Virus record (IMG/VR): IMGVR_UViG_3300034523_000143
Span: 1-43,026 of that record
Length of the DNA: 43,026 bases
Strand: one strand, 5' to 3'
From: a virus
Shown: one piece after another, positions 33,650-42,783 of the stretch
Numbering within the stretch: the stretch's first letter is position 1
Layout of the letters: the number at the start of each line of letters is the position of its first letter
Translations under genes and position numbers: made by a program
The notes under the pieces: generated by a model
The model's input: the letters and a program-made list of their open reading frames with translations, nothing else
Told to the model about the DNA's origin: nothing
Database searches by the model: none

Positions 33650-33697
33650 TGCATGGGGTGCAAGGGGTCGAGTGTTCGAATCACTCCGTCCCGACCA
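33650..33697 (+). pseudogene. attR: 3' fragment of tRNA-Pro(GGG)
   Basis: The sequence from the anticodon loop onward matches tRNA-Pro(GGG): anticodon stem-loop remnant GCATGGGGTGC, T-arm GAGTGTTCGAATCACTC and acceptor end CGTCCCG-A-CCA. The 5' half (CGGGACG acceptor strand and D-arm) is absent. This is what remains at one junction when a phage integrates into the 3' part of a tRNA gene; the repaired full tRNA should stand at the left junction outside the window. Confidence 0.8.
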
Positions 33698-35318: not shown

Positions 35319-37190
35319 ATGTGGGTAGATAACGAGACGGAAACAGACTTCCTAAACTTTTCTGGGGTCGCTGACACGGTCGCCGAGATCGTCTACCAAG
35401 CTGATGGCCGCCCGATTTCCATCGGTGTGTCTGGTGCGTGGGGCGCGGGTAAGTCGTCCATGATCAAGTTGATCCAGGCGTCCCTCAAAGCTCCGCCCCA
35501 AGTCGAGGAGAAGCCTGCGAAGGACTTTGTATTCGTCGAATTCAACGCTTGGCTGTACCAAGGCTACGATGACGCCCGCGCCGCCCTGATGGACGTGATC
35601 GCCACGCGTCTGGAAGCCGAGGCCAAGAAGCGCGCGAAAGGTCTAGATAAAGCTTCTGAGCTGCTTTCACGGGTGAATTGGCTCCGGGCTGCGAAGCTCG
35701 CCGGCAGCACGGCCTTGTCCTTTGCTACGGGAGTACCCGCGCCGGGCCTGCTAGGCGAGATCATCGGCCTTGTTGACCGAGTTCGATCTGGGCAGGTCGA
35801 TCAGGATGCCATCGAGGCATTGCACGACACTGCCGAAAAAGCCAAGGATGAGGCCGGCAAGCTATGGAGTAGCGCACCTGCCAAAAAGTCTCCGCCGAAG
35901 GAAATCCAAGCACTCAGGGATAACTTCGAGACCATCCTGGAAGAGCTGGGGGTCACCCTGGTCGTGTTGATCGACGACCTGGATCGCTGCCTGCCCGAGA
36001 CCACTATCTCTACGCTGGAAGCGATTCGACTCTTCCTGTTCCTACGCAATACAGCGTTCGTTATCGCTGCGGACAACGAGATGATCAAGCACGCGGTGCG
36101 CAAGCACTTTAGCGGCGTGCCCGATGATGTCTTGGTGACCAGCTATTTCGACAAACTGATTCAGGTGCCGATTCGTGTTCCTCCCCTGGGTACCCAGGAA
36201 GTCCGGGCGTACATGATGATGCTGTTCCTGGAGAACAGTAAGCTGCCCAAAGAGGTCGTCGAAGAAATTCGGGTTCAGGTGCGCGGACAGCTTCGGACAA
36301 CCTGGCAGGGCAACCGAGTGGATCGCGCGTTCATGCAGAGCTTGTATAGCGACTACCCCACAGACCTGATCGGCAAGTTCGACACCGCTGAGCGCCTGGC
36401 TGCAGTCATGACGTCTGCCTCAGGTATCCAGGGAAACCCTCGACTAATCAAGCGCTTCCTGAACGCCCTGTCTATCCGCATGAGCATCTCTCGTGCCCAA
36501 GGGGTGGGTGTCGATGAAGCGGTGCTGGTCAAGCTGATGCTTTTCGAGCGTAGCGGTAACCCAAAGGCCTACGAAGAACTGATGAAGGCGGTGGCATCCC
36601 ACAAGGACGGCAAGCCCGTGCTGCTTGGCGAGTGGGAAGCTGATATGAAGTTGGGCAAAGCCCTAGCGCTCCACCAGCCCTGGGATCTTCCTTTCGTCAA
36701 AGAGTGGCTCGCCCTGCCTCCTGCGTTGGCAGACAAAGATCTGCGGGGGGCAATCTACGTCAGTCGTGAGCATGCTCCGATCATCACAGACGAAGACCGA
36801 CTGTCTTCGGAAGCTGCCGAGCTGCTTACCGCACTGCTCGCTACCCCTGACATGGCTGAGCAGCTCAAGGATAGGTTGGCACTCATAGCGCCTGTCGATA
36901 TCAACGTGGTGATGGATCGTTTGTTAGACAAAGCAGGTGCTGAGCAAGAGTGGGGAGTACCTGACATCCTGGAGGCCTTGCTCGTAGTCGGACGACTTGA
37001 TACTCAGCAGGGGCTTCGATTGGCTGCGTTTCTGAAAGCTCGTCCGCCGGCACAAATCCAGGCGGGCATTGTGCCGAAGCTTACAGACGAGGTTTGGGCG
37101 AAGTCAGTGTACGAATTTTGGAAGACGGCTGAAGTCAGTCCGCCGGTGAAGGCTGCAATAAGGAAGTTTGATGGGAACCTCACAAAATAA
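35319..37190 (+). CDS. qatA: QatA, KAP-family P-loop ATPase (623 aa)
   Basis: First gene of a three-gene operon. Walker A GAWGAGKSS (residues 39 to 47), KAP motif FNAWLYQ (74 to 80), Walker B VVLIDDLDR (214 to 222) and a following sensor-like region (FVIAADNEMIKHAVRKHF). A helical insertion between about 110 and 200 carries hydrophobic stretches as in other KAP ATPases. The C-terminal half is helical. The next two genes match QatB and QatC, which identifies it as QatA of the QatABCD anti-phage system. RBS GGGAGGG. Overlaps qatB by 20 bases. Confidence 0.8.
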   Translation: MWVDNETETDFLNFSGVADTVAEIVYQADGRPISIGVSGAWGAGKSSMIKLIQASLKAPPQVEEKPAKDFVFVEFNAWLYQGYDDARAALMDVIATRLEAEAKKRAKGLDKASELLSRVNWLRAAKLAGSTALSFATGVPAPGLLGEIIGLVDRVRSGQVDQDAIEALHDTAEKAKDEAGKLWSSAPAKKSPPKEIQALRDNFETILEELGVTLVVLIDDLDRCLPETTISTLEAIRLFLFLRNTAFVIAADNEMIKHAVRKHFSGVPDDVLVTSYFDKLIQVPIRVPPLGTQEVRAYMMMLFLENSKLPKEVVEEIRVQVRGQLRTTWQGNRVDRAFMQSLYSDYPTDLIGKFDTAERLAAVMTSASGIQGNPRLIKRFLNALSIRMSISRAQGVGVDEAVLVKLMLFERSGNPKAYEELMKAVASHKDGKPVLLGEWEADMKLGKALALHQPWDLPFVKEWLALPPALADKDLRGAIYVSREHAPIITDEDRLSSEAAELLTALLATPDMAEQLKDRLALIAPVDINVVMDRLLDKAGAEQEWGVPDILEALLVVGRLDTQQGLRLAAFLKARPPAQIQAGIVPKLTDEVWAKSVYEFWKTAEVSPPVKAAIRKFDGNLTK

Positions 37191-38064
37191 CGATCCGCCT
37201 GGCAAGGGCCTACCGTACGTACCACCTTGGACTCCTCCGCTGCCCCCTGTGCCGCCAAAGCCGCCCGAGCCACCGGATGCAGATCCACAAGATGACAGGC
37301 CATACGAGCCAGACAAGGATGAGTCCGAGGATGGTAGTGACCAAGCCGATGACCCAAGACAGGCACCCCAGGCACCTTCACCCTTAGCACCTCCTGCACG
37401 ATTCAAGGGGGCGCGGCGGGGGCTCGGTGACTTCGCAAGCAGCGGTAATCGCAATAGCTTGCGCAAGAGCCTGCGGGAATATGTGCGCCATGGATATGGT
37501 GGATCAAAAACCACCACGGCTCGCTTTGGAGGCACCGCGTCGATCGCCGGGGTCTTCGGCAGTGCGCTTGAGTCGGTCGCTGATGGCAGCCAGCAAGCCG
37601 GCCCCGGTGTACTTGACCGAGTCCTTCTGCAAGGTCGCTCTGCCTCCGAAGTGATGGATGCACTGGTTGAAGCCGTGCGCCCAGTAGACGGTACTCAGGA
37701 TGCGGAGGCTGAGCGTTCCTCGATCCGTGGCTCGCTATCCGATGTTCTTGTGCGTTACCCAGACGCTGACCTACTCAACCTGTCAGCCGAGCAGCGGACG
37801 TTTGCGATTGAGCGTTTCACAGCGATGGACGTCTTCCATCGGTACGAGCTCGATATGTGCAAGACGATCCAGGAAAAAGCGCCTTCAGCATCCGTCGCAA
37901 TGCGTCGATTGAAGGAGATCAAGGACTACATCAAAGAATGCGTGAGCGCGTCGTTCCGCAAGATCGCAAACGCCAGAACGCCCTTGACTACTGGGAGGAT
38001 TTCTCAGGTTGTTACCCAGGCGCTGCAGGACACCTTTGAAGTCTTTGAGGGGTACGTAGAATGA
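37171..38064 (+). CDS. qatB: QatB, uncharacterised Qat defence component (297 aa)
   Basis: Starts MGTSQNNDPPGKGLPYVPPW, matching the QatB-type start with conserved GTS and VPPW. Residues 18 to 78 are Pro/Asp-rich and look disordered. Then a conserved-looking block (PPARFKGARRGLGDFASSG ... YVRHGYGGSKTTTARFGGTASIAG) is followed by a helical C-terminal half. No enzyme motif. AAGGAAG upstream and overlap with qatA suggest translational coupling; the qatC ATG overlaps its stop. Confidence 0.72.
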   Translation: MGTSQNNDPPGKGLPYVPPWTPPLPPVPPKPPEPPDADPQDDRPYEPDKDESEDGSDQADDPRQAPQAPSPLAPPARFKGARRGLGDFASSGNRNSLRKSLREYVRHGYGGSKTTTARFGGTASIAGVFGSALESVADGSQQAGPGVLDRVLLQGRSASEVMDALVEAVRPVDGTQDAEAERSSIRGSLSDVLVRYPDADLLNLSAEQRTFAIERFTAMDVFHRYELDMCKTIQEKAPSASVAMRRLKEIKDYIKECVSASFRKIANARTPLTTGRISQVVTQALQDTFEVFEGYVE

Positions 38065-39329
38065 GGTTTGTGTGCGGTCCAGCTGGATTCACAGTGCCGG
38101 GTATGGATGGCGCCATGCAAGTGGTGATCTACGGTAAAGCGGAGGATGGGCAGGTCAGCGTTGGTGGCTATGCTCGGGAACTGCTGGATAGGTCCCATTT
38201 GGAAATCAGCCCTCAAGCCTGGGACTTTCTGAGTATCGCGCTTTCAGTGGTGGCTGCTGATTTCACTGATCTGAGAGCAAAAAGTGCTGATGCCTGGACT
38301 CGCCAGATCAGCCTTGAAATTGCTGTGCTGGATCCGGTGTTTTGGAATGCGCAGGCTCGTGCCTTGGAGGCGGCGTTGCGGTTCCTCACAACGGATCAGT
38401 GGACACTGGCTTTTCACCCTGGTGGTTTTGGGCCGCCGGCACAGATGCAGGTACTGCATCCTGTTGAAGATTCGGTGGTGCTGCTCTCTGGTGGTCTAGA
38501 CAGCTTGATTGGCGCAATTGACCTGGTCGAACAGGGGGTGAAACCCTACGCAGTGAGCCAGATTGTTCGAGGCGATGGTGAGAAGCAGGATCTGTTCGCA
38601 CAGAGTCTTGGTTTGAACCGGATCGGTCTCAACCACGTGGCCAGGTCGCCCGGGCAGCAAGAGCCGTCCCAGCGCGCGCGCTCGATCGTATTTTTGGCAT
38701 TTGGCCTAGCCGTAGCGACTTCGCTCGATCGCTACCATCGTGGCGAGACCGTGCCGCTGTATATCTGCGAGAACGGGTTTATCGCCATCAATCCACCGCT
38801 GACCATGTCCCGGGTCGGTAGCCTGAGCACTCGCACTGCGCATCCCGAATACTTGGGGCGGCTCCAACAGATATTTGATGCTGCTGGCATCAACGTTCAG
38901 ATTCGCAATCCCTATGCTTTGCTCACGAAAGGCGAAATGATGGTGGGCTGCAAAAATCAGGATTTGCTCAAGCAGCATGCCGTGGCATCCACCAGTTGTG
39001 GGCGCTTCCAGCGGTTCGGCTATAAACATTGTGGTCGCTGCGTTCCGTGCCAAGTGAGGCGAGCATCGTTCAAGCGTTGGTCAGAGCTCGATGACGATAC
39101 TTGCTACGTCTACGACAACCTCAACCAAGATGACCTGCAGCACGGGAGATTCGAAGACGTGCGCTCGGTGGGTATGGCGTTGGCAAACGGGGCTCAAAAT
39201 GGCTTCGAGGAATGGCTTGGCCACAGTATCTTTTCTCCCTTTATCCATGATCGCCAGGGGTACAGTCAGATGCTCGCGCGAGGGCTGGATGAGCTTGGCG
39301 TTTTGCATCGTGATTATCGGCTGATCTAG
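38061..39329 (+). CDS. qatC: QatC, QueC-like enzyme of the Qat system (422 aa)
   Basis: Residues about 135 to 340 resemble QueC (7-cyano-7-deazaguanine synthase): PP-loop SGGLDS at 143 to 148 for ATP activation, and a zinc site C313-x10-C324-x2-C327-x2-C330 (CGRFQRFGYKHCGRCVPC), close to the QueC C-x8-C-x2-C-x2-C pattern. The N-terminal 130 residues are extra compared with QueC, as expected for QatC. Active-site motifs are intact, so it should modify a base, nucleotide or protein. Coupled to qatB by ATGA. Confidence 0.82.
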   Translation: MRFVCGPAGFTVPGMDGAMQVVIYGKAEDGQVSVGGYARELLDRSHLEISPQAWDFLSIALSVVAADFTDLRAKSADAWTRQISLEIAVLDPVFWNAQARALEAALRFLTTDQWTLAFHPGGFGPPAQMQVLHPVEDSVVLLSGGLDSLIGAIDLVEQGVKPYAVSQIVRGDGEKQDLFAQSLGLNRIGLNHVARSPGQQEPSQRARSIVFLAFGLAVATSLDRYHRGETVPLYICENGFIAINPPLTMSRVGSLSTRTAHPEYLGRLQQIFDAAGINVQIRNPYALLTKGEMMVGCKNQDLLKQHAVASTSCGRFQRFGYKHCGRCVPCQVRRASFKRWSELDDDTCYVYDNLNQDDLQHGRFEDVRSVGMALANGAQNGFEEWLGHSIFSPFIHDRQGYSQMLARGLDELGVLHRDYRLI

Positions 39330-39374
39330 CCGAGTGACACGTGCCTCTAGGTACCGGCAGCGTTGTCAATCAAC

Positions 39375-40466
39375 TTAGCCTTCAATTGCATTAAGTCGCT
39401 GCTTCAACTGCTCATTAAGCGACACACCATGTACACCTGAGTGAATCTCGCGATGACAGGATGGGCACACAGCACCTACGTACCGAGGGTGGTCGAGGCC
39501 ACCGTCGGAGAGCCGATTTACATGATGCGGCTCCAGGTATGGGGTTCCATCTTTCTTAAAAAAAGGAGCTGGCTTGTCACAGCTTTCACATAAGCCTTTG
39601 GCACGCATGAGGACGTAGTGAGCGACCTTTCGGCTACGTTGGTAAATTTTGCGCTGTGCTGATTGGTCCATTGCATTCGTTACCGGCTTACAGGCAGCCA
39701 GAGCAGCTATCCGAGCCGCAGCTAACGAATCTGCGAGTTCAACCGCTGTCTCCAACTCAGTTTCGATATCCATCTCTGGACTACTCACAGGTACCAATCT
39801 GAATACAAGAGCAGTGCGGTCCTTGCCATCAACATCCGGTTGGATTCGTTCAAAGACGTCGGCGCAGCAGAACTCACCTATGTAACGATTACCTTTTCCT
39901 TTGCCGAGCGATTTGAACAGATGAAGCGCACGACCTGTCTCTGCATGCTCAGCGACAGCTCTGTTGCCACGGTTCAATGTCATCGGCCCACGCTGCCCCT
40001 CTCCGGTGTAGAGAAATGCACCGTTGTCCCAGCGGTCGGCATAGCCGTATTGCTCGCCACTATCGCCAGTAAACAAAAAAATCGCCGGGTAGGTAGCGGA
40101 TGCCGCTATGCCGCTCTGCCGGCTACCCCCGAATGGTCCGTTGATTTCAGTCACTCGATCGTAAATGGCCCCAGGCTCGAACTGCAGGACTGGTTCTAGA
40201 CCAGTGCTTTGCAGCTCGATGATCGAAAATCCACGCTTTTCTAAATAGCGGTTTGTGAGGTGTCCGCCTGGGAATTGGCTAACTGCGATGCCGGTAGCCA
40301 AGGAGACTATTTTCTTTGCTGGGTACGATGTACCCCCTACAGCAATCGCGTAGCGGTGGGCAGGGTTCGTCTCCCAACCATGCCACTCTCGTCTTCCTCT
40401 AAAGTCGCGGTCAAATTCCAGCAAAGCCTTATCAATACGTTCCTTCGATACAGCTTTGATCGCCAC
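39375..40466 (-). CDS. ScoMcrA-like SRA-HNH endonuclease (363 aa)
   Basis: Convergent to qatC with 45 bases between the stops. N-terminal domain (about 1 to 85) has the IKAVSKERIDKALLEFDRD ... YPAKKIVSLATG ... GGHLTNRYLEKRGF pattern of ScoMcrA-like head domains. Residues about 95 to 220 match an SRA-type modified-base reader (YDRVTEINGPFGGSRQSGI ... IFLFTGDSGEQYGYADRW ... YTGEGQ). The C-terminal HNH nuclease has C293/C296, H314/H315, C334/C337 and H338/H342 (PHHVNRLSDGG ... CPSCHREIHSG). This should be a type IV restriction enzyme for modified DNA. Start uncertain: GTG 40466 with AAGGG upstream is favoured over a TTG at 40550. Confidence 0.78.
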   Translation of the reverse strand: MAIKAVSKERIDKALLEFDRDFRGRREWHGWETNPAHRYAIAVGGTSYPAKKIVSLATGIAVSQFPGGHLTNRYLEKRGFSIIELQSTGLEPVLQFEPGAIYDRVTEINGPFGGSRQSGIAASATYPAIFLFTGDSGEQYGYADRWDNGAFLYTGEGQRGPMTLNRGNRAVAEHAETGRALHLFKSLGKGKGNRYIGEFCCADVFERIQPDVDGKDRTALVFRLVPVSSPEMDIETELETAVELADSLAAARIAALAACKPVTNAMDQSAQRKIYQRSRKVAHYVLMRAKGLCESCDKPAPFFKKDGTPYLEPHHVNRLSDGGLDHPRYVGAVCPSCHREIHSGVHGVSLNEQLKQRLNAIEG

Positions 40467-40740
40467 GTGCGTTGCCCTTTGTCGCCGATGCTTGTAGGAA
40501 ATTTCCCCATCGTCGCCAAAGTGATCAAACGGTTCAAGAAAAACTGGCAAAGCGCCATTGCGATCGTAGCGTCCGCGCGAGAGTTCGTATGCGTTTCAGG
40601 TTCATATTCGTTGTGGCAGCAGGCGTGCCCAGGGTCTACGGAATCGGATTTTCCCTCTTCTCTGTAGTCCGTTTCCGAAACATACTTCTACCCCCTTACA
40701 GCCCGTTGCAGCCGCTGCATCACCCATCTAGTCTCGCCAG
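40467..40740. other. Right side of the island, no gene seen
   Basis: About 270 bases. Short open frames (for example 40472..40801 and 40260..40667 on the plus strand) are without ribosome sites and overlap the HNH gene or the structured region, so they are not believed. Presumably holds the promoter of the HNH gene and the island edge. Confidence 0.35.
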
Positions 40741-40938
40741 GTCGCTGCCAATTCAGCGACCGGTTTTGACAGACCGGGAAGATAGTAACGCGCGTGCATA
40801 GCCGTCTATGGTGGCTGTACGTGGGGCACTTCGGTGCGCCGGTTTCCTATTTTCCCGGTCTGTCAACCCGCGTACAGCTGCCACCTTTCTGTTTGACAGC
40901 AGAGAACGGTAGCTCCATTTGAAAATAGGAGCTCTACC
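40741..40938 (+). ncRNA. Structured 5' region of the DUF6124-like gene
   Basis: A 15-bp perfect inverted repeat, TTGACAGACCGGGAA (40766..40780) and TTCCCGGTCTGTCAA (40852..40866), encloses a GCAC-TTCG-GTGC hairpin near 40827..40838. A smaller hairpin GTCGCT/AGCGAC (40741..40760) precedes it, and AGCTCC/GGAGCT (about 40913..40933) near the start codon pairs with the ribosome site. Could be a cis-acting RNA or a repeated element; the folding is visible, the function is inferred. Confidence 0.45.
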
Positions 40939-41175
40939 ATGCTGAAAATAGTCCCCGATCCACCCCTACACGACAAATACACCACCCACACCCTCGAAGA
41001 CCTCCTGGTCCAGATCTCCGAATACCTCGTCTGCGCCCTGACCGTCAGCCAGCAGACCGTCCTGCTCCACGCCAAACCCCCAGGCCAGGTCCTGACCCTC
41101 GCCGCCATGCACGAAATCGACAGCGCCCGCACCCTGGTGGAAGTGGCGCTGAGCCGCGTGCAATCCCGGCACTGA
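40939..41175 (+). CDS. DUF6124-like Pseudomonas small protein (78 aa)
   Basis: MLKIVPDPPLHDKYTTHTLE has the MLK-x-x-PDPP start I associate with DUF6124 proteins, widespread in Pseudomonas genomes. The remainder is two predicted helices (LEDLLVQISEYLVCALTVSQQ and LAAMHEIDSARTLVEVALSRV). No known function. The AGGAG ribosome site can be closed by pairing with upstream GCTCC, so translation may be controlled. The next gene has the related DUF3077-like pattern. Confidence 0.65.
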   Translation: MLKIVPDPPLHDKYTTHTLEDLLVQISEYLVCALTVSQQTVLLHAKPPGQVLTLAAMHEIDSARTLVEVALSRVQSRH

Positions 41176-41251
41176 CCTGGCGAGCCTGGGCTCGCACTTG
41201 ATGTTCACCGATCAGGCCCCGCGCCGTTCGCGGGGTCGCAGGAGGAATGGT

Positions 41252-41560
41252 ATGGATAAGGAATTGCAGATCCCGCGCATCAAGAAACTCGCCACCACCG
41301 GCGTCGGGCATTTCGGCGAAGGCGCGCAGGTGAATGTGCAAGACCCGCTGTTCCGCGTGGTGGCGGGGCATCCGCTGGACCATGCGGTGGAGCAGGCGAC
41401 CGTGCTGATGTGTGCGGTGCACAAGATCAGTGATCTGGCGATGGTGGAGACTGATCATCTGCCTACGCTGCTGACGGCGGTGCATTACCTCAGTGGCATG
41501 GCCAAGGCGTTGGCCCAGGATGTAAATCATGGGTTGATGGTTGGGCGGGGGGCTGAGTAG
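41252..41560 (+). CDS. DUF3077-like small protein (102 aa)
   Basis: Contains the block LFRVVAGHPLDHAVEQATVLMCAVHKISDLAMV ... LLTAVHYLSGMAKALAQDV that matches DUF3077-type proteins, helical and of unknown function, common in Pseudomonas. Start at MDKELQIP behind GGAGGAATGGT. A strong hairpin CCCCGCG/CGCGGGG (41217..41235) lies just before the ribosome site. DUF6124-like and DUF3077-like neighbours are often seen together. Confidence 0.65.
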   Translation: MDKELQIPRIKKLATTGVGHFGEGAQVNVQDPLFRVVAGHPLDHAVEQATVLMCAVHKISDLAMVETDHLPTLLTAVHYLSGMAKALAQDVNHGLMVGRGAE

Positions 41561-41599
41561 GGGGAGGGTATCTGCCTGGGGAGCTTGGCTGTCTGGGCT

Positions 41600-41632
41600 G
41601 GCCCCTTCGCGGGCAAGCCCGCTCCCACAGGA
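41600..41632. repeat. P. putida-type REP palindrome
   Basis: GGCCCCTTCGCGGGCAAGCC followed by CGCTCCCACAGG: the core GCGGGC-AA-GCCCGC with the flank CTCCCACAGG is the repetitive extragenic palindrome typical of P. putida-group genomes. It may serve as a transcript end for the converging genes on both sides. Confidence 0.8.
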
Positions 41633-41651
41633 TTTGTTTTTCGCCTTGCCG

Positions 41652-42041
41652 CTATGGCGCCAGGTTCACGCCATTACAGCGCCCCTTGGTGGAGAAGTCG
41701 TTGATCTGCCGCGCCTTGTTCACCGACATCAAAATCGTGCAGCCGCCAGGGTGGGCCACGTCGTCCCAGTAATTGGTATGGATCATCACGTTGCCTTGCA
41801 TCTCGGCGGTGCTGCCGACCACCTCCTTTTGCACGTAGGTGGTATCGCGGTACCAGCCCAACTGCACCCCAGCACCGTCGGGCAACGGCTCCATGCGCAT
41901 GGGCGGGCCGAAGAAGTCGATGGCCTGCTTGGCGTCGCGGCCTTGCCATTGGTTGCCCGCCATCAGCTCCGGCAGGGTCGGGATGCAGCCGGCCAACGTC
42001 GGCAGCAACAGGCCAAGGATCAGCAGAGAGCGCGTGCTCAT
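41652..42041 (-). CDS. Lipoprotein, hypothetical (129 aa)
   Basis: N-terminal signal with lipobox LPTLAGC (Cys19). The mature part has a beta-rich pattern with [31 protein letters not shown] and ends with [22 protein letters not shown]. No family recognised. ATGA overlap with the upstream gene for an exported protein indicates a two-gene operon, probably acting in the envelope. Confidence 0.7.
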
Positions 42042-42601
42042 CGTGGGGTGTTCGCCAGCATGTCGTCCAGCTCCTGCACCGCCTGGCTGTTGGCCTGCAC
42101 GCCGATCAACTGGATGAACATGGCCTGGATGGTGGCGACCATCTTCGCCGCCGGCATCTTGCCGATCGACAGCATCTGGTTGCGCGCGCGGTTATCGGGG
42201 GCGCAGACGAAGGCGAAGGTGCGCTGCAACCAGTAGTCCTTTGGTGCTACCCAGTCTTTGGCGTTGGTTTTCACATCCCTCACGGCACCGTCGAAGCGAC
42301 GTATCGCCCGGGCGCTGTCCAGGCGGATCTGGCGCTGTTTGCACTTGGCCTGCACCTCGTAGGCGACGAGGGTCGGGAAGGCCGGGTCTTCGAATAGCTG
42401 CATGACCTGGGCCGATTGCACGCCACCGGGCTTTTGCAGGATGCTGGCGGCATCGGCGACGTAGACCTCGTTGTGCAGGCGTTCCCCTTTGCCGTAGATG
42501 ATCCAGTAGTCGCCTGAGGCGGGTGCGGCCAGGGCCTGGGTGCTGCAGGTGAGGGCCAGGATCGCCAGCCATTGGCAGAGGGGTGGAAGTTTGTGACCCA
42601 T
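42038..42601 (-). CDS. Exported hypothetical protein (187 aa)
   Basis: Sec signal peptide ([20 protein letters not shown]) cut near residue 26. The mature protein [23 protein letters not shown] ... has a surface-adhesion-like or SmpA-unrelated beta pattern with later helical part ([21 protein letters not shown]). Two cysteines may form a disulfide. Function unknown. It overlaps the lipoprotein gene by four bases and is preceded by GGAAAGGACTCC. Confidence 0.65.
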
Positions 42602-42783
42602 GGAGTCCTTTCCCGGTTTTTGTAATTCAGGACGACTATACGAGGCCTGGGGGATCAGGGTCGATTAGGGCGCTTGTGCTAATGGCCAGAGGCCTGCAGC
42701 ACCTAGGCTTATACGAGAAGTGAGCGGGACGATGCTTCATCGCCACTGCCCCAGGATGAAAAACCGTACTCAGGGTGTGGTCA

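Follow-up and report, generated by a model that had tools for sequence, protein, structure and literature searches.

A qatABC operon that appears to have lost qatD lies in a tRNA-Pro defence hotspot of Pseudomonas

Three overlapping genes on the plus strand make up the locus described here, which is part of IMG/VR virus record IMGVR_UViG_3300034523_000143, analysed over its whole stretch of 43,026 nt (the window). They are qatA (35319-37190), encoding a KAP-family P-loop ATPase of 623 aa, qatB (37171-38064), encoding a protein of 297 aa with an MGTS N-terminus and a long Pro-rich tail, and qatC (38061-39329), encoding a QueC-like protein of 422 aa; the qatB frame shares 20 nt with qatA and 4 nt with qatC. 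The start of QatB was corrected from TTG at 37168, which adds one Met, to ATG at 37171, giving an N-terminus that begins MGTSQNN. MGTS, or its GTG-started equivalent, opens nearly all QatB frames found, the exceptions including loci with decayed or broken frames.

The reading of these genes as qatA, qatB and qatC, proposed by the first-pass annotation, is borne out by PADLOC and NCBIfam profiles and by the structures PDB 9VLK/9ZEE. QatB (129 bits, cut-off 100) and QatC (305.6 bits, cut-off 280) exceed the NCBIfam cut-offs, QatC matches 9VLK/9ZEE with E ~1e-48 and QatB aligns to 9ZEE_A from residue 1, the best PDB matches of the two proteins being the solved QatB and QatC chains. QatA, recognized by PF07693 (220 bits) and by the PADLOC QatA model (478 bits, E 8.5e-144), reaches 464 bits with the NCBIfam model, under the equivalog cut-off of 600, and is thus a divergent member. 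Residue inspection also upheld the intactness of Walker A (GAWGAGKS) and Walker B (VVLIDDLDR) in QatA and of SGGLDS (residues 143-148) and the zinc cysteines (C313/C324/C327/C330) in QatC, which in addition carries TxT as T257/T259. A KAP ATPase QatA, an MGTS-starting QatB and a QatC with its motifs are present in the operon, and QatD is absent from it.

Gene order, overlapping frames, the KAP-type QatA, the MGTS of QatB and the SGGxDS, TxT and zinc cysteines of QatC are shared with the Qat system (qatABCD) of P. aeruginosa and E. coli, from which the window differs by the missing qatD and the divergent QatA. The operon without qatD (D-less hereafter) is a variant of the known Qat system; the name QatABC was not found in the open-access papers searched, subscription papers lying outside the search. 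Type IV CBASS, with Cap9 and a CD-NTase, likewise combines a QueC-like enzyme with a partner exposing an N-terminal glycine, but the window encodes no CD-NTase or Cap10, and TxT takes the place of Y/D in the active site of QatC. Scanning the region 5′ of qatA for promoters and searching E. coli DNA both found nothing, single-sequence scans of IMG/VR for relatives of QatC and of the HNH protein described below returned none, and the phage records contained only two distant QatC matches (24% identity).

From position 1 to ~33.6 kb the window is a tailed prophage that encodes NinG, a terminase, tail and tape measure proteins and an endolysin. It is followed on the plus strand by the 3′ 48 nt of a tRNA-Pro(GGG) (33650-33697), which are 100% identical to the tRNA-Pro 3′ ends in the loci L100 and L105. 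This piece is the attachment-site end of the prophage, and all that follows is host chromosome. From 33870 onward the window is collinear with the P. peradeniyensis chromosome (96%), and the alignment of L001 to the window begins within the tRNA of L001. Together, the tRNA-Pro 3′ end and the collinearity with P. peradeniyensis place the qat locus outside the prophage, in the host chromosome; qatABC as prophage cargo is ruled out by the tRNA-Pro 3′ end at 33650. In P. matsuisoli (L006), qatABC is also located ~1 kb from tRNA-Pro(GGG).

Downstream, as described at first pass, a nuclease gene converges on qatC with a gap of 45 nt between the qatC stop and its 3′ end and, being convergent, does not belong to the qatABC transcript. 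This McrA/ScoMcrA-like gene lies on the minus strand at 39375-40550 when started from TTG 40550, with GTG 40466 as the other possible start, and its product consists of an N-terminal domain, an SRA-like middle domain and an HNH domain. The HNH nuclease domain is identified by 6GHC McrA (E 1e-20) and PADLOC mREase_IV, and 5ZMM ScoMcrA is matched with E 7.7e-12; the protein is EcoKMcrA-like in its HNH domain, and its resemblance to ScoMcrA extends over the SRA and HNH regions, the putative SRA assignment coming from the corresponding region of 5ZMM/5ZMN with no Pfam SRA hit. While an HNH domain and a putative SRA-like domain are common to it and the type IV restriction enzymes ScoMcrA and EcoKMcrA, the N-terminal domain is a different one, the match to ScoMcrA covers only the SRA and HNH regions and the sulfur-binding domain of ScoMcrA is not seen; the gene is a neighbour outside the Qat unit. 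The conserved flank past the HNH gene also contains a C4 antisense RNA, a phage-immunity RNA, with its a1/b1 target (40728-40888; Rfam, 80.6 and 64.3 bits).

Homology on the qat side stops at 39295-39347 in HNH-free relatives, and homology on the HNH side begins at 39347-39436 in qat-free genomes. The junction between the qatABC cassette and the resident flank falls in or beside the 45-base gap (39330-39374), which contains no qatD or remnant thereof. In six genomes the HNH gene is located in the same flank without qatABC, with 90-95% identity at the DNA level from ~39,350 to 42,700, and tRNA-Pro was found in the retrieved stretch of five of the six. Between tRNA and HNH gene these genomes carry Hachiman genes (L100:10832-13993; HamB in L105:5156-8582), Olokun (L104:7497-10921), an LmuA/NACHT-like protein (L101:4544-9145), an OLD-like ATPase (L102:5305-8269) or a gene pair with no assigned system (L103:4580-8850). 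The interval from tRNA-Pro(GGG) to the HNH gene is thus a defence hotspot of P. putida-group genomes, of which the HNH gene is a resident and qatABC (35319-39329 in the window) one interchangeable guest.

The pair in L103, to which PADLOC assigns no system, encodes a 617-aa protein with no family and one of 804 aa containing two HATPase domains; it is a candidate new defence pair. Two D-less loci of the lineage described below have an HNH/SAVED-effector-like nuclease gene (PDC-M68A-like; L093:13438-15114 and L002:10357-11928), which lies on opposite sides of qatABC in the two loci and belongs to a family different from that of the window HNH protein.

No QatD-like sequence was detected in the 43,026 nt of the window, in line with the first-pass remark that no TatD-like gene follows qatC. 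With QatC as query 17 genomic relatives were found, eight of which (79-99% QatC identity; Pseudomonas and Vreelandella) possess qatABC without qatD; in the remaining relatives (48-55% QatC identity) qatD directly follows qatC wherever sequence is available. Plasmid relatives at 53-58% retain qatD, and in close outgroups qatD overlaps qatC. A survey of 400 Pseudomonas genomes added G262 and G223 to the D-less lineage, although the QatC sequences of G262 and L004 are identical and the two may represent a single locus. Besides the window, the D-less lineage comprises ten genomes, from Pseudomonas and one Vreelandella, in which the surroundings of the operon mostly differ, and qatD does not adjoin qatC in any member of the lineage.

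When the ten lineage genomes were searched in full with the QatD model, none had a match above the curated cut-off and each yielded only three TatD paralogues, versus six of six qatD-bearing Pseudomonas controls with a match above it; of the fates of qatD considered at first pass, loss is the one favoured. Nor was a decayed or hidden qatD detected 3′ of qatC in 13 D-less loci (best E 0.16 over 1.5 kb after qatC, 1.1 kb in L003). Eight loci compared with each other have no common fourth gene, and the search for residue switches in QatC tied to qatD loss gave a single weak column, Ile49. In QatC trees, which were quick trees, the D-less lineage forms a single clade (100% support) within qatD-bearing kin. 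The qatABC operon of the window would accordingly descend from a lineage that appears to have lost qatD once and subsequently spread between Pseudomonas species and Vreelandella.

A second D-less group consists of three other Pseudomonas genomes (L094-L096) with qatABC and no qatD, the nearest relative of which, on an Azospirillum plasmid (64% identity), has qatD, as have the next relatives. One joint clade of both D-less groups was rejected by the AU test (p = 0.0116, and p = 0.000666 once more relatives had been added), the p-values being somewhat flattering as the groups were named after the first tree had been seen. This rejection indicates that qatD was lost independently in a second Pseudomonas lineage. 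Within the 400-genome Pseudomonas sample qatD is missing from nine of 22 Qat loci and present in 13, one of which is cut by a contig end. It is kept in 15 of 15 sampled alphaproteobacterial and actinomycete Qat loci, a count that includes some actinomycete loci with no detectable QatA or QatB and leaves out three more actinomycete matches that resemble other QatC-like families.

Several QatC-like units stand apart from these operons. In an actinomycete (L133:6730-8837), the gene for a 262-aa MGTS-starting protein overlaps one that is QatC-like (202 bits); neither QatA nor QatD was seen in the vicinity, and the two genes could represent a stand-alone QatBC-type system. A 458-aa divergent QatC-like protein of Pseudomonas with the degenerate PP-loop SDGMDS (L098:5332-8440; also L048 and L050-L054) is encoded next to a 189-aa gene and an RmrA-like HTH/protease gene, and a 712-aa divergent QatC-like protein with intact SGGLDS and TxT (L090:642-3558; L091) beside a 262-aa gene.

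With respect to function, SGGxDS, the ATP-contacting R and F, TxT and the four zinc cysteines of QatC are invariant in both D-less groups, as they are in 33 qatD-bearing alignment rows, and MGTS is kept in QatB of the D-less lineage. Between the window and more distant lineage members dN/dS is ~0.05-0.11 for A, B and C; no value was obtained for saturated pairs, and that of the near-identical QatB pair with L001 (0.46) is uninformative. The lineage qatABC is thus under strong purifying selection, and the invariant residues together with the low dN/dS suggest that the operon has worked for long without qatD. By this alignment, the basic patch R407/R410/R414 in the C-terminal extension of P. aeruginosa QatC is not conserved in the window QatC; it is also not conserved in most QatD-bearing relatives and varies in all alignment groups.

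The first-pass annotation had offered the neighbouring nuclease as a replacement of QatD, that is, as the effector of a new Qat variant in which a modified-base reader is coupled to a base-modifying enzyme. The gene is adjacent, intact and a nuclease by family, but it adjoins qatABC solely in the window and in P. peradeniyensis and is absent beside the other nine lineage relatives, its orthologues occupy the same flank where qatABC is lacking, and its orientation is convergent. Its co-occurrence with Qat is not above chance either, as only two of the 41 among 400 Pseudomonas genomes that carry it have Qat (2/22 Qat genomes with about 2.3 expected), G003, one of these, having a 55% relative on a different contig. 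Association of the HNH gene with qatABC is consequently not conserved, and the premise of base modification is itself weak, as in QatC TxT replaces the deazaguanine-binding residues of QueC, the enzyme being thought to modify the N-terminus of QatB (PMC13279940). On this neighbourhood comparison the HNH protein is rejected as replacement effector, and such a variant is considered very improbable.

Very improbable as well is a decaying, non-functional remnant after qatD loss, which the missing part of a known system and the decayed look of another locus, on Paracoccus pPAN2, might bring to mind; three intact frames with all catalytic residues kept and the dN/dS values over a long D-less divergence stand against it. 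In the pPAN2 locus (L019, 5351-9002) an IS5 element occupies the position of qatA, and qatD is frameshifted. A host housekeeping TatD-family nuclease that acts as QatD in trans would find its candidates in the three TatD paralogues of every D-less genome, but qatD-bearing genomes possess the same three besides QatD, with neither an additional nor an adapted copy apparent, and in the published system deletion of QatD leaves defence (PMC13279940), so that this explanation is considered unlikely.

Cumulatively, it is with good confidence that qatABC is regarded as a complete three-gene Qat operon, derived from a lineage in which qatD was lost once before the lineage spread, situated in the tRNA-Pro hotspot and built around a QatBC core that needs no dedicated QatD. 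The cassette would have landed in the tRNA-Pro hotspot, the right flank of which carries the McrA-like HNH gene. In a studied Qat system, QatB and QatC form a complex sufficient against lambda, and defence requires both the glycine of QatB and the active site of QatC (PMC13279940). By analogy, and in view of the intact active site and the MGTS motif, QatC may bind QatB and use ATP to modify the N-terminal glycine of QatB exposed after Met removal, and the QatBC complex would be the phage-blocking core. The DNA-binding ATPase QatA might tune which phages are answered, and the QatD nuclease would not be required, the core presumably working without it in the window lineage. Deletion of QatA or QatD did not abolish defence but affected the phage range, while their joint deletion restored susceptibility to some phages (PMC13279940), which suggests that the D-less form may defend more narrowly. 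In a survey of the QueC family, qatA and qatD were each found beside about one third of the QatC cluster (PMC13329287).

Whether Qat immunity needs a dedicated nuclease at all is a wider question, and the odds seem even that it does not: at least two natural lineages would run wholly via QatABC, the effector being modified QatB or else QatA acting on DNA, and QatD would be a range-widening accessory repeatedly shed in Pseudomonas. As the locus illustrates, a gene that adjoins a defence system in a hotspot can be taken in error for one of its components. Two independent natural losses of qatD, as indicated here, fit recent evidence that the nuclease is unneeded for core activity, and the D-less operons offer ready-made material to find the Qat effector and the reaction catalysed by QatC.
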